The notes beneath the pieces are model-generated. The model was not told where the DNA came from, ran no database searches, and was given only the letters and a program-made list of their open reading frames with translations. Positions 7,657 through 61,602 of a stretch of 64,000 nt of DNA are shown here, in pieces. The position numbers and the translations under genes were made by a program. The DNA comes from Roseivirga misakiensis. GTDB taxonomy: Bacteria > Bacteroidota > Bacteroidia > Cytophagales > Cyclobacteriaceae. Positions within the stretch are counted from its first letter, which is position 1. Each line of letters begins with the position of its first letter. The stretch lies in the NCBI RefSeq assembly GCF_001747105.1, contig NZ_MDGQ01000005.1, positions 2,418,001 through 2,482,000 of the forward strand, given 5' to 3'.

Positions 7657-7911
7657 TTATCTACCATTGTGTGCTAAAAGCCCTTTTTTCGATGCTAGGT
7701 AATAGTATTTTTCGAAATCTGCATCAAAGTTTAATTCATCCTCGAATACCTCATCGTTCATATTATGTAAACACTTTACCCAGCCCTTTTCCAATAACTG
7801 TTTTAGTATTGGTTTTATTTCCTCGGCAGACATTGAAAGCTCCTCAGTTAAATAGGCCAAAGGCTGTACAAAATACAGTTCGTCTAAAACGTCAAATTCT
7901 TCATCTGTCAT
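7657..7911 (-). CDS. Small acidic protein, winged-helix-like, unknown function
   Basis: I do not recognise a named family. The 84 residues are strongly acidic, with no membrane segment or signal. Residues 16-50 (YLTEELSMSAEEIKPILKQL plus the following EKGWV) read like a small winged-helix fold of the kind that switches on partner binding. It is placed between a membrane glycosyltransferase (4-nt overlap) and an RsbU-like phosphatase (2-nt gap) in a tight operon. This makes a small adaptor for the phosphatase one possible role; that is inference only. Confidence 0.7.
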   Translation of the reverse strand: MTDEEFDVLDELYFVQPLAYLTEELSMSAEEIKPILKQLLEKGWVKCLHNMNDEVFEDELNFDADFEKYYYLASKKGLLAHNGR

Positions 7912-9020
7912 TCTGCCTGTTTTACATTATAATTTCTTCCCTTCCATTCGAATGTACCAAAGTTAGCAGCCACTCCGATATAAATAGCATAGAATGGATA
8001 CAATAGATAGCTAAAAAATGTCGGTAGCCAGTGAGTTCTTTGCCCAAGGGATCGTCTTACTGACCAAAGGAATATCAATTCGATCAACAACCGCAGAACA
8101 ACTAAACTTAGTGCTTGCCACGTAAAGTCATTTTTGAATAGAATGAGCCCGAGTAGTAGTATTTGTACTAATTGAATTAGGAACACAAACAAAGCGATCG
8201 CCATAGTAGAGCCTCTCTTGCCATAATTCCATTTACTTGCCCATCGCAAACGTTGTTGCTTAAAAAGTTGCCAAGATTCCATCGCAGCCGTTTTCACCAC
8301 CGCTTTTTTCGATTTGCAAAAAGCAATACCGTCAGTATATCGGTTCGCTACTTTATGCATTAAGAGTTCATCATCGCCAGATGGAGTACCACTAATGCCA
8401 TCAAAACCATTCACGTCAGAAAATACAGCTTTTCTATAGGCCAGATTTGCTCCATTTGCCATAGTAGGCTTGCCATGAAAAATCATGGTACCCCCTACTC
8501 CAATTAAGGCAGTAGACTCCATAGATTGCATGCGCTGCCAAAAACTATTCCCTTGTAGGCCAACTGGCCCCACTAGTAGTTTCACTTTCTCATCGTGAAA
8601 AGGAATAGTCATCTCTTTTAACCATTCTGAACTCATTTCACAATCTGCATCTGTCGTGATAATGAGTTCATTTGTACTTTCCGATATACCTAGCGCAAGG
8701 GCTGCCTTTTTTCCAACTCCCTTCTTCAAACTCAACAGACGATGTTTAAAGGAGACGTCTTGAAGCAAGTCTTCTAAGACAGAAGTGCCATTATCATCAG
8801 AATGATCGTCCACAAATAATACTTCAAAATCTGGGTGCGTTTGATTCTTTAAGCTAGAAACCAAGGGAGATAAGTTCTGAGCTTCATTTCTAAATGGAAT
8901 GACAACCGATACTGGGGCATATTTTGATTGATCCTTAAAGGCCTTTCCCCTAGCCCATAATGCTGTAAAGGCAATAATGAGGAGCAGGTAAATGGAATAG
9001 ACGAGGATTAAAACAATCAC
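7908..9020 (-). CDS. Membrane glycosyltransferase, family 2 (first gene of operon)
   Basis: A 370-residue GT2 protein with an N-terminal helix (about 2-20), a GT-A domain with VVIPFRNEAQNL, DDHSDD (about 72-77) and TTDADCE (about 120), an acceptor-site QQRLRW motif (about 232-237) and three C-terminal membrane segments. Start is a GTG at 9020, the only in-frame start that keeps the N-terminal helix. It opens a seven-gene overlapping minus-strand operon and is divergent from ruvC. Such proteins transfer sugars from nucleotide donors to lipid or polysaccharide acceptors at the inner membrane. It resembles the GT2 at 4730-5821 in design but is clearly diverged. Substrate unknown. Confidence 0.85.
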   Translation of the reverse strand: MIVLILVYSIYLLLIIAFTALWARGKAFKDQSKYAPVSVVIPFRNEAQNLSPLVSSLKNQTHPDFEVLFVDDHSDDNGTSVLEDLLQDVSFKHRLLSLKKGVGKKAALALGISESTNELIITTDADCEMSSEWLKEMTIPFHDEKVKLLVGPVGLQGNSFWQRMQSMESTALIGVGGTMIFHGKPTMANGANLAYRKAVFSDVNGFDGISGTPSGDDELLMHKVANRYTDGIAFCKSKKAVVKTAAMESWQLFKQQRLRWASKWNYGKRGSTMAIALFVFLIQLVQILLLGLILFKNDFTWQALSLVVLRLLIELIFLWSVRRSLGQRTHWLPTFFSYLLYPFYAIYIGVAANFGTFEWKGRNYNVKQAE

Positions 9021-9642: not shown

Positions 9643-9936
9643 TCATTTTTTTTCAGGGCTTTAGTAGATAGGCAAAAGCGAATTAAACCCTCAAAACCCG
9701 GGTCATTCCCTGCAATCGATATCATGCATTCATTCGCAGATCACTATGTACCTACTGGGTATGGATTTATATTGTATGGTATAAGCGACATTTTAGCATT
9801 TCAGGTTTGCGCAATCCCAAGATAATTCAACACTGTGTTGACCATATAGAATCTTGAACGGATTACATCTGATAGCACTTACTGCAAACCAACCTAAACC
9901 ATTTTTTAAACAGGTTGGAATAAACAGAAACCTAAC
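9643..9936. other. Intergenic spacer before the GT4 gene
   Basis: About 290 bases without a supportable gene. The only structure I see is the inverted repeat at 9889-9918, listed separately. No tRNA, clear terminator or good -33/-7 promoter was found. It probably holds the promoter and leader of the GT4 gene. Confidence 0.5.
9889..9918 (+). promoter_or_regulatory. Inverted repeat in the leader of the GT4 gene
   Basis: CCAACCT and AGGTTGG form a perfect 7-bp inverted repeat separated by 16 AT-rich bases, ending 18 nt before the ATG of the GT4 gene. It could be an operator or a leader hairpin that affects translation start. There is no T-run after it, so it is not a terminator. Confidence 0.35.
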
Positions 9937-11181
9937 ATGAGAATTGGAATTATCATTGGAAGAATTGGCGGCGTGGATGGTGTTGCTCTTGAAACGGAAA
10001 AATGGATCAGTGTACTGAAAAAGCTTGGGCATAAAGTCTTTATTATGTCCGGCGAGTTTGAGTCTTGGAAAATTGATCATGAACACGATTACTTATTCCC
10101 AGCTCTATCTTTCTTTTCTGTAGAAGCAGAATGGGGTCAAAGAAAAGCTTTTTTTCAACCCGATAATGACCCTGACCCGCTGCTCGATCATGTAGAAAAC
10201 GCATCTAATATGATTGAAAAGGCAATGAGGGATTGGGTAACCGAGAAAAAGATTGACGTTTTACTCTCAGAAAATGCATCGGCCTTACCTTGCCATTTAT
10301 CGATGGGTGTAGCCATTAAAAAACTCATCCAGAATACAGGCTTGCCGATCGTTACGCATGATCATGACTTCCACTGGGAAAGAGGTGAACGATACGTTTC
10401 GGTACATCCAGAAATCAATCAATACGTCGATGATAATTTCCCTTTGCTTTTACCTAATGTTAAGCATGCAGTAATCAATACGTTTGGCGTAGAAACCTTT
10501 AAAAACAGGTTTGACATTGACGCAACTTTGGTACCGAATGTCATGGACTTTAGTAGGTCTTATGGCATTCCGACAGAGGAGAATAAATTCTTTTTGAAAG
10601 ACGTCGGTGTTGCCCCAAATGAAATTGCCCTACTTCAAGTAACCAGAATTGTTAGGCGAAAAGGCATAGAAACGGCTATTTCCCTAATAGATAAGCTTCA
10701 AGATAAAAAGCTCAAGTTGGTCATTACTGGCAACAACAATGACGACGAAAATAAGGAGTACTACAACGAACTGATCGATCAAATACATGACCTCAATTTA
10801 TCCAGTCAAGTCATTTTTGCAGCACATAAAGTGCTAGATCACAAAGACCTTTCCGATGTGTATGCTCATGGCAGAGCTTGTACATATTTCAGCACCTATG
10901 AAGGATTTGGCAATGCTTTCGTAGAGTGCGTACTGGCCAAAAAACCAATCTTCGTCAATAACTATAAGCCTGTTTACATGCAGGACATTGGGAGCAAAGG
11001 TTTTGAAACCGTAATGATTGAAGACAGCAATTTGACCGATGAACATGTACGGCAAATGTCAGAGATCATTTACAACCCTGATCGGTGCCGAGAAATTGGA
11101 GAGTACAATTTCAAACTTGGCCAGCAACACTTCTCTTTCGATGTACTGGAGTCAAAACTCCAGCATCTATTCACATTTTAA
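9937..11181 (+). CDS. Glycosyltransferase family 4, resembling mannosylglucosylglycerate synthase-type enzymes
   Basis: A 414-residue retaining GT-B glycosyltransferase, cytoplasmic. The N-terminal domain opens with GRIGGVDGVALETEKW (about residues 8-23), which positions the acceptor, and has THDHDFHWERG near 140-150. The C-terminal donor domain shows RIVRRKGIETAI (about 232) and the E-x7-E motif YEGFGNAFVE with Glu322 and Glu330. The N-terminal signature reminds me of GT4 enzymes that build glucosylglycerate-type solutes, but I cannot confirm the substrate. It lies 18 nt before a giant gene whose N-terminal domain shares the same two signatures (DG-I-x-V-ETEK and HDF-Y-WE), so the two were probably duplicated and act on related sugars. 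Confidence 0.85.
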   Translation: MRIGIIIGRIGGVDGVALETEKWISVLKKLGHKVFIMSGEFESWKIDHEHDYLFPALSFFSVEAEWGQRKAFFQPDNDPDPLLDHVENASNMIEKAMRDWVTEKKIDVLLSENASALPCHLSMGVAIKKLIQNTGLPIVTHDHDFHWERGERYVSVHPEINQYVDDNFPLLLPNVKHAVINTFGVETFKNRFDIDATLVPNVMDFSRSYGIPTEENKFFLKDVGVAPNEIALLQVTRIVRRKGIETAISLIDKLQDKKLKLVITGNNNDDENKEYYNELIDQIHDLNLSSQVIFAAHKVLDHKDLSDVYAHGRACTYFSTYEGFGNAFVECVLAKKPIFVNNYKPVYMQDIGSKGFETVMIEDSNLTDEHVRQMSEIIYNPDRCREIGEYNFKLGQQHFSFDVLESKLQHLFTF

Positions 11182-11199
11182 GTCACCAAAAAAACAAGA

Positions 11200-14100
11200 A
11201 TGATAAAAAATAAATCGAAGATCAACGGCCTAATAGAACAACTCCACAATGAAAAAATAGGCACTTGGTTTGATCTGGGTTTATTCATTGACAGATTCAA
11301 AGAGCAACAATCAAAAGCATCTTTTAAAGGAGATTCAAACTCTTTTGACACTTACATTCAAACTGGAGGAGTAGCCTTTCTCACATTCTACTTCACCATA
11401 GATGGCATTACAGTAGAAACTGAAAAGTACGCTAAAACTTTCAAGAGTATATACCCTGACATCCCCATTCATTTTATAGCTGGAGATATTAAACCAGAGG
11501 CTGATGAACTGATTCCGGGTACTGCTTTTAAAAAAGTAATCCCAGAAATGGAGGCCTTCGATGCATGGCCCCTCTACGAGGATTTCTTTAAAATCAAGAT
11601 GGAACGTGGCAGTACGGCATACAACCAGCTAATCGGAAAACTTTGGGCTGAAGTGCTCGTGTTAGTCAAAAAACTGGGCACTTACATTGAAGAAAATAAT
11701 ATTTCATTGCTCTACTTGATCAATGTTTGCTCTAACCCTGGCAATGTATCGTTAGCCATAGCCACAGTACTGATATCTGAGCACTTAGGGCTACCTGTGA
11801 TCAATAACAATCATGATTTTTATTGGGAGGGCGGTAACAGAGAAATTGAACGAAAGAAAAAGGGGCTAAAAAAAGGGCCTCGTGATTTCTTCTTCCACAA
11901 TGCCCATGTTGGTGAGTTCTTTTCGGTCATCGAAATGATTTACCCTTGGGAAAGTAGATCTTGGATGAATGTGAACATCAACCAAATTCAACAGAATCAC
12001 CTCATTGAAAAAAACGGTCACAACCCAGCAAATGTAGCTTTAATTGGCACTGCTGTAGATACTAAGCTACATCAGATGAGCAAGCGTGATATTATCAAAG
12101 CGTTTATGCAGGTTTCTACCATTTTTGCGAATAAAAAAGATACTATTACTGTACATGCAGCGGTAAAACACACCAATAGCGAACGTTCACTTAAACCAAT
12201 TCTTCTCGGCCATAAGACAATCCAAGAATTCGATTTTGTCAATAACAACATCGTCTTTTTGCAGCCTACAAGAGTGATTAGCAGAAAATCCATTGAGCTC
12301 AATTTCAAGCTTATCAAACGACTGTTTTCTTACGATGCCTTTACTGAAAAATTCATCACTAACCCTCAGTTAAAGCTCTCGCTAATTGTATCAGGACCAA
12401 TTCCTCACGGACAGCAAGGTTATTACAGCGCGCTGAAGTCTGATTTTGAAGCCTTTTTAAACCAGTTACCCAAACAGTTTAAGTCAAGGGTGCTTTTAGG
12501 CTTTTTATTTAGCGAATTCGATAAAAACGAGTTCAAGAAAAAATTCAAAAAACCATTAGATATCGAGCAACTCTACGATGTTGCCTCCTTGATCCTTTTA
12601 CCAAGCCAGACAGAAGGTAGAGGACTACCAATTATAGAGGCTGCCGCCTGCGGTACGCCTATTTTCTGCCGCCAATATGAGCCGCGAGAAGTCTATGACG
12701 AGGTAATCGGCCGTCACCTTGATAAATCTTTAAGACTTAATGTTTTGGAATTTAAGGGTGCTAAAGTTCCGAAAAGATTGGCTGAAAAAATTTGTGACCA
12801 TGTGTTCTACCCGCAGAATCGGATGGTAGATGTTACGCATAACAGAAACGTGATCATCAAAAGGTATAGCATTGAAGCGCTGCAAAAGAATATGCAATCC
12901 ATTCTAACCAGATTGCACATTCAGCTCAAAGAAATATCTGAAGAAGTCAACCCACAGGTAGTTAAACTCTTAAATCGCTATCAAGAAATTGTCAATTTTG
13001 AAAACGATGATCTAAAGGCTATCCTCAATAAAGAAACCAGACACTATCTACCTGGTTATGGTCGATTGTCGTTTATGATTTACTTAAAATCCCTCATTGA
13101 CCCAAGTTTTTTTAGAGTGGAAGAACAACTCATTCGAGGAAAAATCATGAGTTACGCTCGTATGATGGAAAGCGATATTCCAGACGCTGTCAATAAAAAC
13201 TTATCCCTTACCCATGATTACTATAACGCCATAGATGACATCTTTAAGTATGTAGATGGCACTTCTGAATTAAGGCACGATCATGCGCTAGCCTACAGAC
13301 ATAGAAATAAAAAATCGTTCGCTTACCAAGCATTTACATTTCAAGAATTGACAGGTTTGGTGAACATGATCTACAGTGATGTTTTTAAGCCGACGCATTT
13401 AACTGACTTGACCCTAGCCCCACAATTCTTCGCCGATTGGGAATTAGCATTATTTCAATTGACCAATAGTGAGTTTTTAGGCATTGATGATAGAAAAACG
13501 CTCACTCAAAAATTAAAGAATAACGTACCAAAAAGTTATTTCCCTGGCCGCTATATTAAGCACGAACTGGAATACTTCGTCCTACAACCTATCCGTTCTC
13601 AGCTTCGATTAACGATTGAAGAAGAGTTAACGAAAGAAGTTCTGGACCTTAAAGGGCATGGACTGGAAAAAGTCTACATTTTCATTCACGAACCAAGGCT
13701 AACGAAGTGGTTTTCTAGTGCAAACATTAAGGAATATCTGGAAAGCGATAAAGAACCTGAGCTCGGCCTTTTATACAAAGCTGGCATCGTACAGATTGTT
13801 GAAACCAAGCAATGGTCGGAAGGAGTTCATTTCCCACAAATGGGTGCTAAGGCCATTAAGGTTTTACGCGAGATAAAAGCCTCGAAAGGCTTCATTATAA
13901 CGAATGGAGAATATGCCGCTATGATGACGGATACTATAGAAATCGATCACTTCCACATCGGTAAAGTATTAGACAACATGACGGCCAAAATCATGGGTAT
14001 ACCAAAAGGTAGTGGTTTTATTCAGTTTGTCCCGTCGGGCGTGAGAACCACCTTGGCCTACCCTACACCGGTCCAAACGGCCAAGGATTTTGAATTGGCC

Positions 14101-15390
14101 TTGAAGAGTGATTTATATAATGATCTAAAAGCTAAAATGGGTGAAGAAACCCTGCTGAAAGTTATTTCGAAAGACGCTATTGAGAATGGCACACCAATTA
14201 ATAAACTCCTGAACAAGCTGAGCGAAAACTTAAATGGCGAAAAGATTCAAGAGAAGGTAAAATCTTCTTTTGCCGGTGGTGTATATGCCGATGGCCTGCC
14301 TTGGAGTGGTGTTATCGCCGAGGTGGATACAAAACAACATTTATGGCGTTTTGCTGCTCACATCGCCAACGATAAACCAAAAAACGTTCCAGCACTCATC
14401 AAAGAGTATAAGAAAAAAAGCCATAACCCGCATAAAATAGAACTCGCCTGGAATGGTGGATATATTCTTAATCCAGAACTCGTCGGGAAACTAGGCCTAC
14501 CAGAAACCTATATTGGCTCACCGCTGGGTTTGCTGATTATGAATGGCAAGGTTTTCTGTCCACCGCTTTTTAACAAACCTGCCTTTATTATATACAAGGA
14601 TGGTACTGTAGACATAAGACGCGTCAATTGTACAGCCGGACTCCGTGTTAAGAGTGTCAAGCAAACTCTTGATTTTCAGGCAGAATTTTATAATCGCCAT
14701 AGCAAAACTGCCCCATGTTTCTATGACCTTTCTTACAGCGATGAAACGATCAAGGCCGATGGAAATACTATCGTGAGAATTGCAGGAAATACGGTTAAAG
14801 AAGTCATCAGTACTTCCGAAAATGAATCAGTTAATATAATTCCCGTTGGCATAACCTTATCTATTCCAGCTAATTTGTTTTCCACCGACGACTTTATAGT
14901 AGGCAAAGCTCTCAATATAGAATTAGTGGAACCTGAGACTTCTCCTTTCCGATGGGATGAAATATCCTATGCGATAGAGGCCGGCCCTATGTTGATTGAT
15001 CAGGGCAAACAAATATTAAATATGGAAGTCGAGGGTTGGAAAACTACCAATTCTATTAAAACACAAGCCGCCAGATTGGATTTCACCGATATGCGAGGCC
15101 CTAAAATTGCCGTTGGCATTACCAAAGCAGGCCAGCTAATGGTTTTGATGGTCAATGGAAGAATTCGCGAATCAGTTGGTGCCACTCACTTTGATATGGC
15201 CGATATTTTAATGAAGTATGGGATGCATAAAGCCATGGGGTTCGATCCGGGCGGGAGCAGTACCCTCGTAGTCGATGACAAAATCATGAATATTTCCCCC
15301 TACAACAAAAACTATGAGTCTGACATTTACTCTTTACCACCAGAACCTCGATTTGTAGCCAATGCAATCATGGGCTGGGTTGAATCCTAA
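11200..15390 (+). CDS. 1396-residue fusion: GT4 glycosyltransferase + unknown middle region + phosphodiester glycosidase (NAGPA) domain
   Basis: Three regions are visible. Residues about 45-600 form a GT-B glycosyltransferase with DGITVETEK (68-76), NNNHDFYWEGG (202-212), a donor-site RVISRK and an E-x7-E motif (Glu472 and Glu480 in TEGRGLPIIE). Residues about 600-1015 are mostly helical, unlike anything I recognise. Residues about 1020-1395 match the phosphodiester glycosidase family (the NAGPA domain of the mammalian mannose-6-phosphate uncovering enzyme), with AWNGGY, AIEAGPMLI and the hallmark GFDPGGSSTLVV (about 1347-1358). No signal peptide or membrane helix is seen, so the protein is predicted to be cytoplasmic, unusual for NAGPA-type hydrolases. 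It may transfer a sugar and process a sugar-phosphodiester; the product is unknown. Confidence 0.8.
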   Translation: MIKNKSKINGLIEQLHNEKIGTWFDLGLFIDRFKEQQSKASFKGDSNSFDTYIQTGGVAFLTFYFTIDGITVETEKYAKTFKSIYPDIPIHFIAGDIKPEADELIPGTAFKKVIPEMEAFDAWPLYEDFFKIKMERGSTAYNQLIGKLWAEVLVLVKKLGTYIEENNISLLYLINVCSNPGNVSLAIATVLISEHLGLPVINNNHDFYWEGGNREIERKKKGLKKGPRDFFFHNAHVGEFFSVIEMIYPWESRSWMNVNINQIQQNHLIEKNGHNPANVALIGTAVDTKLHQMSKRDIIKAFMQVSTIFANKKDTITVHAAVKHTNSERSLKPILLGHKTIQEFDFVNNNIVFLQPTRVISRKSIELNFKLIKRLFSYDAFTEKFITNPQLKLSLIVSGPIPHGQQGYYSALKSDFEAFLNQLPKQFKSRVLLGFLFSEFDKNEFKKKFKKPLDIEQLYDVASLILLPSQTEGRGLPIIEAAACGTPIFCRQYEPREVYDEVIGRHLDKSLRLNVLEFKGAKVPKRLAEKICDHVFYPQNRMVDVTHNRNVIIKRYSIEALQKNMQSILTRLHIQLKEISEEVNPQVVKLLNRYQEIVNFENDDLKAILNKETRHYLPGYGRLSFMIYLKSLIDPSFFRVEEQLIRGKIMSYARMMESDIPDAVNKNLSLTHDYYNAIDDIFKYVDGTSELRHDHALAYRHRNKKSFAYQAFTFQELTGLVNMIYSDVFKPTHLTDLTLAPQFFADWELALFQLTNSEFLGIDDRKTLTQKLKNNVPKSYFPGRYIKHELEYFVLQPIRSQLRLTIEEELTKEVLDLKGHGLEKVYIFIHEPRLTKWFSSANIKEYLESDKEPELGLLYKAGIVQIVETKQWSEGVHFPQMGAKAIKVLREIKASKGFIITNGEYAAMMTDTIEIDHFHIGKVLDNMTAKIMGIPKGSGFIQFVPSGVRTTLAYPTPVQTAKDFELALKSDLYNDLKAKMGEETLLKVISKDAIENGTPINKLLNKLSENLNGEKIQEKVKSSFAGGVYADGLPWSGVIAEVDTKQHLWRFAAHIANDKPKNVPALIKEYKKKSHNPHKIELAWNGGYILNPELVGKLGLPETYIGSPLGLLIMNGKVFCPPLFNKPAFIIYKDGTVDIRRVNCTAGLRVKSVKQTLDFQAEFYNRHSKTAPCFYDLSYSDETIKADGNTIVRIAGNTVKEVISTSENESVNIIPVGITLSIPANLFSTDDFIVGKALNIELVEPETSPFRWDEISYAIEAGPMLIDQGKQILNMEVEGWKTTNSIKTQAARLDFTDMRGPKIAVGITKAGQLMVLMVNGRIRESVGATHFDMADILMKYGMHKAMGFDPGGSSTLVVDDKIMNISPYNKNYESDIYSLPPEPRFVANAIMGWVES

Positions 15391-15557
15391 AACAGGTAAA
15401 AAGGATTTGACTTATCAAACCAAAACCAAGTCGTAGTTTTTTCAGTATAAGTAAAAAGTTTAGATCGTGTTTTGGATGCAAAATCAGTATCTCAATACCT
15501 ATTCTAGGCATAATTATTGTTTAAAATTCAACCAATTCTTAAACCATAATATTATTT

Positions 15558-15860
15558 ATGAAGAGCTTAAAAACACACCTCGCATTATTCACTTTATTCT
15601 CATTTTTCTTTCTGGCTAGTTGTGGCGAAGACGTTGTTACGGATCGCGAACAAATGCAGACAGAACTCCAAGCAGCAATTAATGAATTTCGAATCGATAA
15701 CATCACGATCCATTTCGGTGAGACTTCAATCCTCTTTAACCAAGAAGACTTTAGTCTCGAAAATGGCTTCTTGGTAATTGATGGAAATCGCAAGTATGAC
15801 CTAGATAAAGTAAGGAGGTATGATGTAAACCGTACCAGCATGACGATTTACTTCCTCTAA
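15558..15860 (+). CDS. Small lipoprotein, unknown function
   Basis: A 100-residue protein with a short positive start, a hydrophobic stretch and a lipobox FLASC at about residues 19-23, so it should be lipid-anchored after signal peptidase II cleavage. The mature part is about 78 residues, polar, without motifs I recognise; its end (RYDVNRTSMTIYFL) looks beta-rich. It follows the giant fusion gene by about 170 nt on the same strand, and the HIT gene converges on it 9 nt later. No function can be given. Confidence 0.7.
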   Translation: MKSLKTHLALFTLFSFFFLASCGEDVVTDREQMQTELQAAINEFRIDNITIHFGETSILFNQEDFSLENGFLVIDGNRKYDLDKVRRYDVNRTSMTIYFL

Positions 15861-15869
15861 TGAAAAGAA

Positions 15870-56052: not shown

Positions 56053-59000
56053 TTAATTTCCTCTATTTACATTCACCCATTTGCCTGCCGATCGCGCATT
56101 AATTGTATCATCATACATCGCCTCCACTTTGACCGTTGGCAGGTAGTATCTTCCAGCATAAGTTGCATTTAATGCCACCTTAAACTTCTTTTCTTCGCTT
56201 GGCCTCAAGTCAAAATAGGTATACACGCGATCATCCCTAATGTCTCTGTATTCGTAATTCGCCTTGGTGGCCACTCCAGGGATTTCATTCAGTCTATCGT
56301 TCAAAATCTCCCAACCAGAAGGGAAAACCTGACTCAAGGCTAAGTCTCGATAAACTCCCTTCGTTCCCGTATTGTAAACTGATACCTCAGCAAAGAAATC
56401 TGTCCCCTGTTCTAAAGTGACTGGGTCTATGACATTCCCGTTTCGATCAGAATAAACGATCTTCAATCGCAAACCCTTTTCAACAGCTTGTTCTGCACCT
56501 GCCATCGGTTGGCCTCGTTTCAACACTCGGACGAATAGTATTCCTTCCGATGTATTATCTACGCTAAAACTCTTTTGCTCTACCCCTTTTACATCGGCGT
56601 CCACTAGGATCATTGATTTCGCAGAGTTCACGTCAACAAGATTACCATTATCGACCTGGTAGGTAGCTTTAATTCCATCACTTGTCCCATCGGCACCAAC
56701 AAACTTAATAATGGATAGTAAAGCATAAGCGGTAGTTTGTGTACTCATCCAACGATCTTCACTCAACAGTTTCGCGATAGCTCTCATCAAGGTTAATCCC
56801 TCATTTTGCAAGCCTAAAAGCCCGAGGGTTTCTAAAATCATTGCATCATCTCTGAGCTTAGAACCATAGTAATAGTAGTAGTTTCTTCTTTTGGTTTGCC
56901 TTGGCAAATCATTAATCATTTCCATAGCCACCTGTTTTCTACCAACAAGGGCGTAAGCTGCGGCAAGTCGCCATTTGGCCGCGATACTTAATAAACTATT
57001 TTCCCTAAGCCTGTTCATGGCACCAAGTTCTGGCGACTGAGCCTTGGCCAAGGTATACAACCTATAGGCCTGTACCAGATCGTCATTATAACTCGAATTT
57101 TTGCTCCAGCTTCTGGCACGCTTCCGTTGGTATTTGGTCCAATCACTTAAAAGCTTCGCAGGGACAAAATAGCCTTTATCTTTTGCCTCTAACAGGAAAT
57201 GACCTGCGTAATTGGTTCCCCAATCGTTGTCGTCGCTTTGGCCTGGCCAATAAGCAAAACCACCCAGCGGCGTCTGGAATTTCTGAATCCGATTGATCCC
57301 ATTAGTAACATTGGTTTGAATTTTCAACTGTTCCTCGTTTGATAAATCAGCCATATCGTTGAGGAATAACTGAGGAAATACTGCCGATGTAGTTTGTTCG
57401 ATACATCCATGAGGATAAGACATCAAATAACCCAATCGCTTTTTTAGATTAATCGGTGGGATAGAGCTCATTTCCAAAGTCATATCATTGGTACCCACTA
57501 TCCCAACTTGTGCAAAGGTTTCGCTCCACTTCTCTCCCTTCTGAAGGGCTTTCTCAGTTACATCTGTTACTTCAGGATTAGGGTTTCTAACCTGTACTTC
57601 TAATTCGTAGGTGGCAGTTTCTCTCCCTGACTTCGCCACTATCTTCACAGTGCCGACTCCGAGAGCTTCGGCAACTTCGAAGTCAAAATCAATGATCTGA
57701 TCACCAATTTCATCAAATTGAATAGTCCGCTTGGTAGAAGCTCCAAAATTCAAGAGACTATTTCCAACCACAGAAACTTCAACTTCTTTGATGGCGGGTT
57801 CTAAAACAAAAACATTCACTGGCAAACTGATCTTTTCCCCAGGGCCAACAACTCTTGGTATAGTACCAAGTACCATAAGTGGTTTACGAACGGGTGTCGC
57901 TTTTTCTACCTTTCCATAAGCGCCATTCTCACCAGCCACTACCATTGTTCTTACCGAACCGATATAATTTGGCATGGTGAATTTGTGATTTGCTTTTTCT
58001 CCCTTTTCTAGCTCAAAAGGTCCTAAATGGACTACTACAGGCTTAAATCGGTTAGCTTTTGCTTTCTCAGGCTTAGCGGCCGATCCATCGCCTCCCAGTG
58101 CCAAAAGTTTAGATAAATCGCCATCAAAAGCCCCAATTACATCTTCATAAAGATCCCAAGTTTTAACACCTAATGCCTGTCTGGCAAAGAAAGTATTCCA
58201 TGGATCGGGCGTTTTGAATCGCGTAATGTCTAACAAGCCTTCATCGACTACCGCAATGGTATAGGTCATCGGTTTACCATCGGCTTCGCTAACAGTTAAG
58301 TTCACTTCGGATTCTGGCTCCAATACGCTTGACATTTCTATTTCAGGATTAAGCTTTGTATTCGGATCGGAAACATTAATCGGTACGATACCATACAGCC
58401 TGATCGGCAGGTCATTTTTAGTCTGCATATGTGGCTGGAGGAGCGTTGTACTCACGTATGCATTTGGCACCATTTCTTCCGTTGTGGTAAATTCAAAAGT
58501 ATTGTACCCCTCAGTAGTTTCTACCCAATAGGAGGCTACTACCTTGCTACCATTTTCTACGCTGACTAATGCGCGTCCTTCGGTACTTGCAGGAATGTTC
58601 ACTTTGACCTTTTCCCCTACACCATAATCTTCAGCATCAGTAGAAAAATTTAAAAGTGCTGCACCGCCAGGCCTCGACTCTTCGGCCCAACCTGGCCAGT
58701 CAAAGTAAGTAATAGAGCCGGCCGAATGACCAGAATCGGTATCGCGAACACGCACATAGTATCGTCCCCAATCCTTATTTGGAATGGCCAATTTTACCTT
58801 AGCTTGGCCATTTGTCGTATTGATTTGCTCTCGATGATACGGGCTGCTATAATTACGACTCACGTAATAAGCCAAATTATCATTTGAGCGATCCCACCAC
58901 CACCGCCAATTAAGTTTAAAGACTTCAAGCACGAGTCCTTTCTTGTCGACAGGTTTCCCATTAGCATCAACGGAAACAATTTCAAGTTCATGATCTTTAT

Positions 59001-61602
59001 TGGTCAATAACTGTCCTCTCCTATCTCCTTCAGGCCTCTTAATGCCCACAAAACTGCTGTAAGGGTAAAAAGGAATACTGAATTGATCTATACTAAAATC
59101 TCCTCCTGGCTCGAATACTTTACCACTAAAAGTAGCCATCAATTTTCCCGGTGCTGTAGTTTGTTTGCTCAGTGTTACATTAACTTTTGCGTTACCAGTC
59201 TGATCAACCGACCCACTGAAAATTCTTTGCGTTTCAGCACTAAATTCTTTGGCTTTATCGTCGAAAGTATATTGAGGATAATCGTTAAAACTGGTTGCTG
59301 TGGGTGTAAGGATCAAATCGAACTCAGCCTTCAAATTTTTAGCTGACACACCGCTGAGCCATTGCACATTTAAATCACCTTTTAGGGTGTTGTCTGTTAC
59401 ACTGATTCGATCCTTATCGAATTTCAGGTCAATCTTCAACCGATTCGGTTTTACTGTTTCTATTTTAATCCGCTTCGTGAACGTGGCACCTCCTACCGTA
59501 GTTCTTGCCAACCAATTGCCTGTCGGATCATCGATATCTGTTTTAAGCGGAAAGTGATAAAAACCGTTGGTTGATGTGGTTTCTACCTTTCTGGTTTTAA
59601 TATTTCCTGAGGGATCGATCAACTCCATTACCACGGGATGTTCCTCAGGTAAATTGTTATCGGGATCGGCCAAGATAAAATTGAGGTAGATATGATCGCC
59701 CGGCCGCCAAACACCGCGTTCTCCATAAATGTAACCCTGTACACCTCTTTGAACTTTCGCTCCGCCGACATTAAAATTACTGAGTGAAAGGGCTCTACCG
59801 TCCCAAAGTTTCAAATACCCTCTTTCATCACCTCTATTAGCGACCAAGAGGAATGGCTTTCTGTCAAGGTCAAGAGATACCCTACCGTCAGCATCAGTAG
59901 TGAGCGTCTCAATTATCTCTTGTTGATAATCATAAATATCTACCCGAACATTAGACAAAGGCTCCGTTGTTTTAACGTCCGTGACGTAAGCTTCTAGGTT
60001 TCTGTTATTGCCCATTTTGGCAATCAAACCTAAATCAGAGGCTAAAATATTAGTGGAAACCAGTCGGTTTCTACCAGCATAATAACTCACATGACAAGGG
60101 TTTTCTCTCTCACGCCATACATACCCTCTACCATATCCATAATTATAATAGCTATCGTAGCCTCCAGCACGTTCTCCTGAATAATCATCCCATTCATCTG
60201 TTTCGATATTGCCTGATACAATAAGCTCATCCGAAATTGGCTCTCCACAGTCATAAAGCGAGTAAGCCTTTTTGAAATTTAACCTAACCTGATAGATCGC
60301 TCCAGGTTCAGTGGCTATCATGTCAGAAATGTCCAGATTGAACCGGTTCCATTTACTCAGGTTCATAACACCCGAAGGATCAAGTTGTACCATACTTTTG
60401 TGAATCGGCCTACCGACTCTCCTCAATTGATCGTTTCCATTCAGGTTATTGGTCTGTAAAAACTGGACGACATTTTTTTCATAGATTTTAATAATCATCA
60501 CATCGACTGCTCGAAGGTTGACAGCCTCAAATGGCAAGACAAGTCCATCGGTACTTGGTAGAATTGTCCCTTTTGATATCAGCTTTACCTGCGGTTTGGT
60601 CTGAGCAAAAGAAACATTGAAGTCCAAATTGTTCTTCATCCCATACCCCAATTTGTTTTTGATACCGGGGTAAACCGACAAGCGCTTAACGCCTGACTTC
60701 GCTTGGGAGGCATATACTTTAACCTCGTTATCCTTAATAGAAAATCGCAGGTCAGTTTCGCCTTCTAATGTTATAAGCCCACTTAAATCCTGGCGTTCAT
60801 CAAGTGGATCAGAAAAATTTAAAACTACATGAGCGTCGCCTTCTCGAACAACGCGGGTGTTCAATACCTTAAAATCATTTAGGCCTGGTATATCCACTTC
60901 CCCTTTCGATCGCCTATCTACACCTATACTGCTACCATTTAAAGCATAGGTCATTATTTCATTTTCCTCTTTTCTGGTGAGTCCAGTAACTTGAAACTGA
61001 TGGTTAGTCCCGTTATTCTGATCGAATACCCAACTGACCTTAAGATCTTCTCCTTTTTGTCGCGCCGTTAAAACCTTTTTAAGCTGAAGCGTATCGACAT
61101 AATCAGCTGTCAGTAATTCTCCTTTTACGATTTGCTTTCGCATTGGGTCAGCCTCATCACTTATTTGACCCAGAATTCTGATATCGTAGTCTTGCTTGAT
61201 CGTTTCAACCTTAAACTTAAACTCCTTTTGACCTTCATCGAAGGATAGACCAAGGGCTTCCAAATCTAGTTTAGCGGTATAGGTACTATTATTTTTGAGA
61301 GGCGTTGCTGGTACAAACTCTAAAACCCTTGGCGTAGCCCATCTTAACTCTCCTGAAATTTTCGGAGAAAAGCTTAAAACATTCTGTAAACGCTGATACT
61401 TAGCCTCCACATCTGAACTTAATTGAACCGTGATCAGTGATCGGGTTGAAATCTTACCAGAAGTATATGCCGATACAATTTCGTTGAAATCTTCATCTGC
61501 CTGTTGATCGTAATTTTCCTCTTCCTGCTTCTGTGGGCTACAGGCTACTATGACGAATACTAGGACAAGACTAAAAAGCCGAAGATGGGCATTTGCGGGC
61601 AT
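56053..61602 (-). CDS. Bacterial alpha-2-macroglobulin (YfhM-like lipoprotein)
   Basis: An 1849-residue periplasmic protease trap. A lipobox-like VIVACSP (Cys about residue 21) suggests a lipid anchor. MG-type beta domains fill the first two thirds, including a Tyr/Gly-rich loop (about 470-500). The alpha-2-macroglobulin domain and bait-like region are followed by the intact thioester YPHGCIEQ (Cys1400) and the helical thioester domain (about 1390-1680), then C-terminal receptor-binding-like sheets. It should inactivate attacking proteases near the inner membrane. It heads an operon with pbpC, which repairs peptidoglycan: a defence pair. Confidence 0.95.
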   Translation of the reverse strand: MPANAHLRLFSLVLVFVIVACSPQKQEEENYDQQADEDFNEIVSAYTSGKISTRSLITVQLSSDVEAKYQRLQNVLSFSPKISGELRWATPRVLEFVPATPLKNNSTYTAKLDLEALGLSFDEGQKEFKFKVETIKQDYDIRILGQISDEADPMRKQIVKGELLTADYVDTLQLKKVLTARQKGEDLKVSWVFDQNNGTNHQFQVTGLTRKEENEIMTYALNGSSIGVDRRSKGEVDIPGLNDFKVLNTRVVREGDAHVVLNFSDPLDERQDLSGLITLEGETDLRFSIKDNEVKVYASQAKSGVKRLSVYPGIKNKLGYGMKNNLDFNVSFAQTKPQVKLISKGTILPSTDGLVLPFEAVNLRAVDVMIIKIYEKNVVQFLQTNNLNGNDQLRRVGRPIHKSMVQLDPSGVMNLSKWNRFNLDISDMIATEPGAIYQVRLNFKKAYSLYDCGEPISDELIVSGNIETDEWDDYSGERAGGYDSYYNYGYGRGYVWRERENPCHVSYYAGRNRLVSTNILASDLGLIAKMGNNRNLEAYVTDVKTTEPLSNVRVDIYDYQQEIIETLTTDADGRVSLDLDRKPFLLVANRGDERGYLKLWDGRALSLSNFNVGGAKVQRGVQGYIYGERGVWRPGDHIYLNFILADPDNNLPEEHPVVMELIDPSGNIKTRKVETTSTNGFYHFPLKTDIDDPTGNWLARTTVGGATFTKRIKIETVKPNRLKIDLKFDKDRISVTDNTLKGDLNVQWLSGVSAKNLKAEFDLILTPTATSFNDYPQYTFDDKAKEFSAETQRIFSGSVDQTGNAKVNVTLSKQTTAPGKLMATFSGKVFEPGGDFSIDQFSIPFYPYSSFVGIKRPEGDRRGQLLTNKDHELEIVSVDANGKPVDKKGLVLEVFKLNWRWWWDRSNDNLAYYVSRNYSSPYHREQINTTNGQAKVKLAIPNKDWGRYYVRVRDTDSGHSAGSITYFDWPGWAEESRPGGAALLNFSTDAEDYGVGEKVKVNIPASTEGRALVSVENGSKVVASYWVETTEGYNTFEFTTTEEMVPNAYVSTTLLQPHMQTKNDLPIRLYGIVPINVSDPNTKLNPEIEMSSVLEPESEVNLTVSEADGKPMTYTIAVVDEGLLDITRFKTPDPWNTFFARQALGVKTWDLYEDVIGAFDGDLSKLLALGGDGSAAKPEKAKANRFKPVVVHLGPFELEKGEKANHKFTMPNYIGSVRTMVVAGENGAYGKVEKATPVRKPLMVLGTIPRVVGPGEKISLPVNVFVLEPAIKEVEVSVVGNSLLNFGASTKRTIQFDEIGDQIIDFDFEVAEALGVGTVKIVAKSGRETATYELEVQVRNPNPEVTDVTEKALQKGEKWSETFAQVGIVGTNDMTLEMSSIPPINLKKRLGYLMSYPHGCIEQTTSAVFPQLFLNDMADLSNEEQLKIQTNVTNGINRIQKFQTPLGGFAYWPGQSDDNDWGTNYAGHFLLEAKDKGYFVPAKLLSDWTKYQRKRARSWSKNSSYNDDLVQAYRLYTLAKAQSPELGAMNRLRENSLLSIAAKWRLAAAYALVGRKQVAMEMINDLPRQTKRRNYYYYYGSKLRDDAMILETLGLLGLQNEGLTLMRAIAKLLSEDRWMSTQTTAYALLSIIKFVGADGTSDGIKATYQVDNGNLVDVNSAKSMILVDADVKGVEQKSFSVDNTSEGILFVRVLKRGQPMAGAEQAVEKGLRLKIVYSDRNGNVIDPVTLEQGTDFFAEVSVYNTGTKGVYRDLALSQVFPSGWEILNDRLNEIPGVATKANYEYRDIRDDRVYTYFDLRPSEEKKFKVALNATYAGRYYLPTVKVEAMYDDTINARSAGKWVNVNRGN

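Follow-up and report, generated by a model that had tools for sequence, protein, structure and literature searches.

The window, a stretch of 64,000 nucleotides of the Roseivirga misakiensis genome, carries a gene for a three-part fusion protein, preceded on the same strand by a gene for a second glycosyltransferase. The features were placed as follows (sources of the assignment in brackets):

9937-11181, forward strand: partner gene, GT4 glycosyltransferase of 414 aa with E322-x7-E330 (ORF, Pfam, NCBIfam, locus counts)
11182-11199, forward strand: intergenic gap of 18 bp between partner and fusion (comparison of relatives)
11200-15390, forward strand: fusion protein of 1396 aa, GT4 + DUF89-like + NAGPA (ORF, Pfam, relatives, AlphaFold2/Foldseek)
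11377-12909, forward strand: GT-B (GT4) glycosyltransferase part, residues ~60-570 (AlphaFold2, Foldseek, Pfam, alignment)
12922-14259, forward strand: central domain with a DUF89-like fold, residues ~575-1020 (AlphaFold2 model, Foldseek)
14302-15387, forward strand: NAGPA phosphodiester glycosidase domain, residues ~1035-1396 (Pfam, Foldseek)

The called open reading frame of the fusion starts with ATG and coincides exactly with 11200-15390. Peak hydropathy in 19-residue windows was 0.18 in the first windows and 1.78 anywhere in the protein: neither a signal peptide nor a membrane segment was indicated and the N-terminus was not hydrophobic, as judged from hydropathy and not from a trained predictor. 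At this level, the single chain without export signal described in an earlier note on this DNA was borne out.

Relatives of the fusion were encoded at 79 or more loci of genome contigs (79 being drawn from 80 of 120 confirmed stretches), with 44-83% identity in the best segment and mostly at near full length, so the fusion is not a chance product. The fusion alignment contained 75 rows from 81 loci, after short or split sequences (L061, L073, L076, L081, L082 and L083) were left out. Models and scans covered 38 representatives with less than 80% mutual identity; the NAGPA alignment had 30 rows and the tree 40 rows. The fusion was conserved along its full length among the relatives, and all three parts were kept in the representatives examined. 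No characterised or described fusion of this kind was found in the open-licence PMC literature; prior characterisation was an outcome for which the earlier note had allowed.

Domains of the fusion protein

The N-terminal part is predicted to be a GT4 transferase, from its GT-B fold and its motif residues. Glycos_transf_1 matched residues 449-494 (30.4 bits, Pfam cut-off 26.4), and a Pfam glycosyltransferase match was obtained in 38/38 representatives at E≤0.01. GT4, a family of retaining GT-B glycosyltransferases, is marked by an E-x7-E motif and a phosphate-binding Arg/Lys pair; here E472 and E480 (8 apart), R358 and K363 were invariant in 75/75 rows, which upholds the GT-B transferase with two conserved Glu proposed previously. 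The AlphaFold2 model of this part (pLDDT 83.0) was matched by Foldseek to GlgM (6tvp, E 2.3e-11) and also to BshA, MshA and sucrose-phosphate synthase (E ~1e-11 to 1e-9).

At the other end of the chain, Pfam matched NAGPA (PF09992) to residues 1225-1371 with 69.1 bits (cut-off 25, E 6.8e-19), and the sequence GFDPGGSSTLVV, cited in the earlier note for a NAGPA-type domain, was found there with its D as residue 1349 and its P as residue 1350. The domain of the window protein contains N1085-G-G and D1349-P-G-G-S-S: N-G-G was present in 75/75 rows and D1349 in 73/74, the exception being the cut-off sequence L003. That sequence, truncated by a contig end, is probably also the single miss among the representatives, 37/38 of which matched PF09992 at E≤1. 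The animal DGGG motif reads DPGG in 30/30 rows of the NAGPA alignment, and an Arg of animal NAGPA enzymes corresponds, by eye, to Lys1302, which is K in 74/74 rows. Foldseek matched NAGPA-type structures, led by 5h3k (E 2.7e-21) and including animal NAGPA (6pki, E 6.1e-13); 5h3k and 6ozd also matched the domain by sequence. Poor alignment of the C-terminal domain with NAGPA profiles, which would have spoken against the earlier assignment, was not seen: with the profile above its cut-off and the modelled fold in agreement, the domain is assigned to the NAGPA family. It thus resembles NAGPA (the mannose-6-phosphate uncovering enzyme) and bacterial DUF2233 proteins (5h3k, 6pki, 3ohg) in profile, and 5h3k and the animal enzymes in fold, but differs from these proteins in being joined to a GT4 part and in lacking an export signal. 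Its known members are mainly exported or lysosomal enzymes.

For residues 600-1015, where the earlier note had proposed a structure prediction, AlphaFold2 and Foldseek gave a DUF89-like fold that had been overlooked. The description of a 400-residue helical part of unknown nature holds only in part: residues ~585-824 are mainly helical with four short strands, a mixed alpha/beta region follows (~824-945), and helices extend to ~1011. Foldseek returned 21 PDB matches at E≤0.001, the first 14 NAGPA-type and the remaining 7 all DUF89: 1xfi (E 9.0e-7, probability 1.00), 2g8l (E 2.2e-6), 2ffj, 8tkz and 6umr, which we take to be human ARMT1, were among the latter. Agreement in fold is moderate, with a TM by target length of 0.35-0.60 and an rmsd of 7-12 Å over long alignments with gaps. 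Sequence searches of the central domain with Pfam, hmmsearch and hhalign gave no DUF89 match: PF01937 did not appear in the Pfam listing of the 38 members at E≤1 (25 of 26 families), and the hhalign probability was below 1%. A plain GT4 + NAGPA reading of the protein was ruled out by Foldseek, as the central domain has a fold of its own.

According to the model, the central domain has the fold of the DUF89 metal-dependent metabolite phosphatases; phosphatase activity is putative, since the active site is recognisable only in part. Candidate active-site residues are D634-P635, N676, D763-D764, E789 and E791; D763 could be the first metal-site aspartate (an assignment made post hoc, once the fold was known), and E789 or E791 could be the second. 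Residue 763 was D in 71 and N in 3 of 74 rows, and residue 764 was D in 52, N in 15 and H in 7. The literal Asp-Asn signature of DUF89 was therefore present in at most 15/74 rows and mostly replaced by Asp-Asp, so the domain could be inactive or have another chemistry. In short DUF89 proteins, [DN]P[YF] and GNxID are spaced by 42 (first letter to N) in 7/8 sequences, the eighth lacking the first motif; these eight represent only a handful of families and do not count as independent (L087, with an in-frame stop, and the fragment L105 were excluded). The fusion has the same spacing of 42 from D634-P635 to N676, spotted after the fold match. Compared with DUF89 (PF01937; 1xfi At2g17340, 2g8l PH1575, 6umr), the fusion is thus alike in fold and, post hoc, in the spacing of DP and N-x-x-D, whereas N676 and D763 are 87 residues apart, against ~49 in the short proteins.

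The partner gene and distribution of the pair

In most Flavobacteriaceae relatives, partner and fusion are separated by 8-14 bp, against 18 bp here, and these short gaps suggest that the pair lies on one putative transcript. Among the 81 fusion loci, the partner was in tandem at 51 and nearby at 14, and was encoded elsewhere in 14 of the remaining 16 genomes (79/81 in all); in 2 of the 81 fusion genomes it was not found. Counted among fusion carriers, the partner is near-obligate; this and the DUF89-like fold of the central domain are the additions to the earlier note.

The best full-length model for the partner was NF041101, mannosylglucosylglycerate synthase (214.9 bits), which matched 32/32 partner members scanned and was also the best NCBIfam match of the fusion (49.5 bits). 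It is the nearest model of the partner, yet both proteins fall far below its equivalog cut-off of 640, and the partner appears to be a full-length but distant relative of that synthase. NF010496, which we take to be GpgS, had no matches over its cut-off in 9/9 carriers scanned, and MpgS was not found in the R. misakiensis genome, which means that the closest solute pathways known are missing. In view of these results, mannosylglucosylglycerate itself is unlikely to be the product.

The fusion was patchily distributed, being present in 2/194 genomes of the order of its host (its own included), and many carriers are marine to judge by genus and sample names. In the tree, the window protein nested among Flavobacteriaceae proteins, whereas identities of the host's GreA showed no flavobacterial affinity, a mismatch that speaks for lateral transfer of the fusion. 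Two congeners have other genes in the interval that holds it. Composition gave no sign of transfer (fusion GC 0.40, GC3 0.41; GC3 of neighbours 0.32-0.44). Plasmid cargo was ruled out because plasmids gave no match, and phage cargo because no relative of the central domain was confirmed in viral contigs; in BFVD, 24 matches were obtained at E≤0.001, of which 9 were named phosphodiester glycosidase and none DUF89. Besides the pair, neighbour clusters were common to at most 21/81 loci, many of which are short contigs with little flank. The recurrent neighbours differ by lineage and were, by eye, mostly ordinary (HemW-, RuvB-, NadA-, RpiB- and Rrf2-like), along with a PAS sensor, an epimerase-like protein and unknown proteins.

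A possible cytosolic pathway and its alternatives

Three folds, conserved GT motifs, a near-obligate partner and signs of transfer are directly supported. The pair probably makes a small sugar compound, described in none of the literature found, for which an intracellular glycoside or compatible solute, along the lines of the earlier note, would be the best fit. Our leading reading, held with a little less than even confidence, is that the pair forms a self-contained, laterally moving cytosolic pathway to a small glycoside via a phosphorylated intermediate. The partner GT4 would form or extend a glycoside from a nucleotide sugar, in the manner of mannosylglucosylglycerate synthase, and the GT4 domain of the fusion would add another sugar, yielding or consuming a phosphorylated intermediate. 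To judge from its fold, the DUF89-like domain may then take off the phosphate, as in synthase/phosphatase fusions for compatible solutes; the NAGPA domain, going by its family, may cut a sugar off a phosphodiester and uncover the phosphate before that step, or may clear away a by-product, for example a glycosyl-phosphodiester or a nucleotide sugar. The product would probably be kept in the cell, most likely as an osmolyte or stress solute.

Related architectures are the sucrose-phosphate synthase/phosphatase and trehalose-6-phosphate synthase/phosphatase fusions, and MgsD, in which a GT-A transferase is joined to a HAD phosphatase. MgsD likewise has a nucleotide-sugar transferase and a phosphatase-type domain in one cytosolic chain; the fusion has other transferase and phosphatase folds, contains a NAGPA domain in addition and is accompanied by another GT4 protein. 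MgsD is described as a bifunctional synthase/phosphatase that produces the solute mannosylglycerate (PMC8490865). It counts against the cytosolic pathway that known solute pathways offer no obvious step for a NAGPA activity. In a more specific and rather improbable version, NAGPA would uncover a sugar-1-phosphate diester, the DUF89-like domain would dephosphorylate the exposed ester and GT4 would glycosylate the freed position, so that a glycosyl-phosphate cap is swapped for a glycosidic bond; together with the partner, the fusion would then produce intracellular solutes of a new class, in bacteria that are largely marine and connected by lateral transfer.

In an alternative reading, the fusion would decorate or edit a lipid-linked or envelope phosphoglycan at the cytosolic face, with the two transferases building the glycan and NAGPA trimming a sugar-1-phosphate branch. 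GT4 enzymes often act in envelope glycan synthesis, and VpsD- and HpsP-type exopolysaccharide transferase models weakly matched 9 and 4 of 32 partners, respectively (E≤1e-10). The phosphoglycan product, an option in the earlier note, nevertheless found little support, given the lack of a membrane segment by hydropathy and the mostly ordinary neighbours shared by so few loci, and we consider it unlikely. A similarly low probability is given to NAGPA and the DUF89-like domain acting as quality control, destroying wrong products of the transferase (mis-made phosphodiesters, phosphorylated dead-end glycosides) and catalysing no pathway steps. In keeping with such a role, DUF89 enzymes are described as phosphatases for the damage control or repair of metabolites (PMC8669784, PMC9352595), and the animal NAGPA enzyme is said to hydrolyse UDP-GlcNAc (PMC12024695). 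Against it, the three-part fusion was retained in the representatives, which suggests a required rather than an accessory step.

The patchy spread, the signs of lateral transfer and the other genes in the interval of two congeners would also suit a conflict or defence module that either installs or strips off a modification on the nucleotide or nucleic acid of an invader, and a weak GT4-conflict match was obtained in 31/38 representatives at E≤0.01. This match reached only 19-20 bits in the window protein (cut-off 26), however, and PADLOC families gave no match for the fusion and one weak match (E 0.047) for the partner. The Pfam scan found neither a toxin nor an effector domain; the full-length conservation of the fusion and the result for viral contigs also argue against defence, which we regard as the least probable of these explanations, and a distant one.

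If the cytosolic pathway is correct, a NAGPA domain in the cytosol would gain a role, as would a DUF89-like domain missed by the sequence models used here. As the two proteins occur together in nearly all carriers, unlinked cases included, the pathway should be tractable, and expression of the pair could expose a new solute or phosphoglycoside.

Domain architecture of the fusion protein

The following pair of genes was analysed:

9937-11181, forward strand: partner GT4 gene (414 aa), 18 bp upstream of the fusion
11200-15390, forward strand: fusion ORF (1396 aa)

Pfam searches of the fusion protein placed Glycos_transf_1 at residues 449-494 and NAGPA at residues 1225-1371, both exceeding the cut-offs, and the E472-x7-E480 motif of the GT part and the string GFDPGGSSTLVV were found in the protein. 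These matches bear out the GT4 and NAGPA domains in one chain that the earlier note had read from the sequence. Its cytoplasmic placement of the protein, lacking an export signal, was likewise upheld by hydropathy analysis, which revealed no hydrophobic N-terminal or membrane segment; a third, central domain and the partner gene had been overlooked. Among the 38 fusion representatives (<80% mutual identity), Pfam detected the GT domain in 38 and the NAGPA domain in 37. The fusion is a real, conserved architecture and is apparently uncharacterised so far: no description of it was found among open-licence PMC papers. The AlphaFold2 model of residues 1-1060 was good (pLDDT 83.0, pTM 0.81), and with Foldseek the N-terminal part grouped with GT4-type enzymes (GlgM, BshA, MshA, sucrose-phosphate synthase).

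In the NAGPA domain, N-G-G (1085-1087) was conserved in 75/75 aligned fusion proteins and D1349 in 73/74, the sole exception being the cut-off protein of locus L003. The domain differs from the animal NAGPA enzymes, whose DGGG is replaced by DPGG (30/30 aligned fusion proteins) and one Arg of which corresponds to Lys1302. The NAGPA family is described as freeing sugars linked by phosphodiester (PMC12419801), and UDP-GlcNAc is reported as a further compound that the animal enzyme hydrolyses (PMC12024695). The fusion was the single NAGPA match (E<=1e-5) in its own genome.

The AlphaFold2 model of residues 575-1396 was also good (pLDDT 82.8, pTM 0.84) and gave 21 Foldseek hits at E<=0.001: hits 1-14 were NAGPA-type and hits 15-21 were DUF89 proteins (from Arabidopsis, two archaea and fission yeast, plus one more entry with DUF89 in its title). 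With TM-scores (normalised to the target) of 0.35-0.60 and rmsd values between 7 and 12 Å, the DUF89 matches are fold-level, not close. Foldseek output carries no residue range; the DUF89 match was inferred to lie in the central part (approximately 575-1020) because of the helical-then-alpha/beta order there, unlike the beta-rich NAGPA domain. By its modelled fold, the central domain would be DUF89. Sequence comparison did not detect DUF89 membership, and the motif likenesses below were spotted only after the fold match, so the domain was labelled DUF89-like and was not filed as a DUF89 member.

Two catalytic aspartates are reported as essential in characterised DUF89 enzymes (PMC9352595). Eight short DUF89 proteins were fetched, and in the seven with both patterns [DN]P[YF] came before GNxID at a spacing of 42 (first letter to N); D634-P635 and N676-x-x-D679 of the fusion are also 42 residues apart, position 679 being D in 54/75 and E in 17/75 rows of the alignment. 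D763 lies where a predicted strand ends; the position holds D in 71/74 and N in 3/74 rows, and the next one holds D (52), N (15) or H (7). This 763-764 pair resembles the Asp-Asn signature of DUF89. E789 and E791 are each conserved in 73/75 rows. Polar residues of the helical part (D634, R639, E641, D694, R700, R702, E716) are invariant in 75/75 rows, from which we infer that the central domain is likely functional.

Distribution of the fusion and its partner

From the 120 stretches confirmed in a genome_contigs scan, the best 80 were retained, giving 79 loci. The fusions of these 79 loci were 44-83% identical to that of the window, and their titles were largely Flavobacteriaceae (Winogradskyella, Lutibacter, Flavivirga, Algibacter, Polaribacter, others), Marinifilum and Bacteroidales. 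Few or single MAG carriers were labelled Calditrichota, Planctomycetota, Desulfobacterales, Chlorobiota or Gammaproteobacteria, labels that may be wrong. The fusion was rare in the window's order (2/194 genomes, its own included), and the central domain was found in 1/395 genomes sampled across the phylum, namely its own. In two drafts the fusion was broken into two ORFs (L081:7212-11380 and L082:5992-10184), by either sequencing error or real decay; it was intact in L007, another strain of the L082 species.

Adding the window and one same-order genome (fusion split across two contigs) brought the fusion loci to 81. In 51/81 the partner immediately preceded the fusion on the same strand (gaps <=323 bp), in 14/81 it lay close by on the other strand, and in 16/81 it was missing from the fetched stretch. 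Genome-wide searches recovered it in 14 of these 16 (one partial at a contig end) and did not find it in the other two (records of 2.2 and 2.3 Mb). Counted from fusion carriers, both genes were thus present in 79/81. Other neighbours recurred within lineages only, the commonest cluster being a HemW-like protein (by eye, 21 loci). In a Caldithrix MAG (L079:332-2990), two tandem partner GT4 genes precede the fusion.

The mannosylglucosylglycerate synthase NCBIfam model matched 32/32 partner proteins scanned (next-best model, 9/32). It was also the best model for the window partner, at 214.9 bits versus a cut-off of 640.

Genomic site and origin of the pair

A maximum likelihood tree was built from 40 fusion proteins by a quick method, with SH-aLRT as its sole measure of support. 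In it, the window fusion fell inside a 17-row group (support 100) whose 16 other rows were Flavobacteriaceae (15) and Bacteroidia (1) by title, far from the protein of the same-order genome. Identity comparison of the adjacent GreA gave a different picture: 67% to the same-order genome, 85-90% to three congeners and 55-63% to six Flavobacteriaceae carriers. The RuvC-HIT interval (window 9643-15869) carries other genes in the two congeners where both flanks were found (in one, an ORF of 355 aa that looks sensor-kinase-like by eye; in the other, several ORFs), and tblastn found neither gene of the pair in the stretches from four relatives. Together these results argue that the pair most likely arrived through transfer into a variable site. 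Its absence from the relatives could instead reflect loss, which fits the tree less well. Nothing unusual was seen in the base composition of the pair.

Other ORFs of the window were as follows:

7908-9020, reverse strand: GT2 family gene beside RuvC
15558-15860, forward strand: small ORF (100 aa) between fusion and HIT, lipobox-like start (by eye)
56053-61602, reverse strand: 1849-aa ORF, longest among the window ORFs listed

The GT2 gene was 45-46% identical in two congeners, in which RuvC, HIT and GreA were 65-85% identical; it may be either fast-evolving or replaced. Tblastn found no counterpart of the small ORF in the stretches from four relatives, and the ORF had no Pfam family above cut-off and no PADLOC family.

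Proposed function

Combining a glycosyltransferase with a phosphatase in a single chain is described for enzymes that form a phosphorylated glycoside and immediately remove its phosphate, e.g. MgsD for mannosylglycerate (PMC8490865), and mannosylglucosylglycerate is reported to accumulate in the marine planctomycete Rhodopirellula baltica (PMC3694870). The NAGPA domain, whose role is the weakest link of the proposed pathway, could act in uncovering ahead of dephosphorylation, or else in side-product clearing. NF010496, which we take to be GpgS, had no match over cut-off in 9/9 carriers, and MpgS was not found in the window's own genome; the known glycerate solutes are therefore unlikely products. 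A location in the cytosol, the grouping of two genes as a self-contained unit and the kinship of the partner with mannosylglucosylglycerate synthase would fit a fusion and partner that make a small intracellular glycoside, probably something other than the known glycerate solutes.
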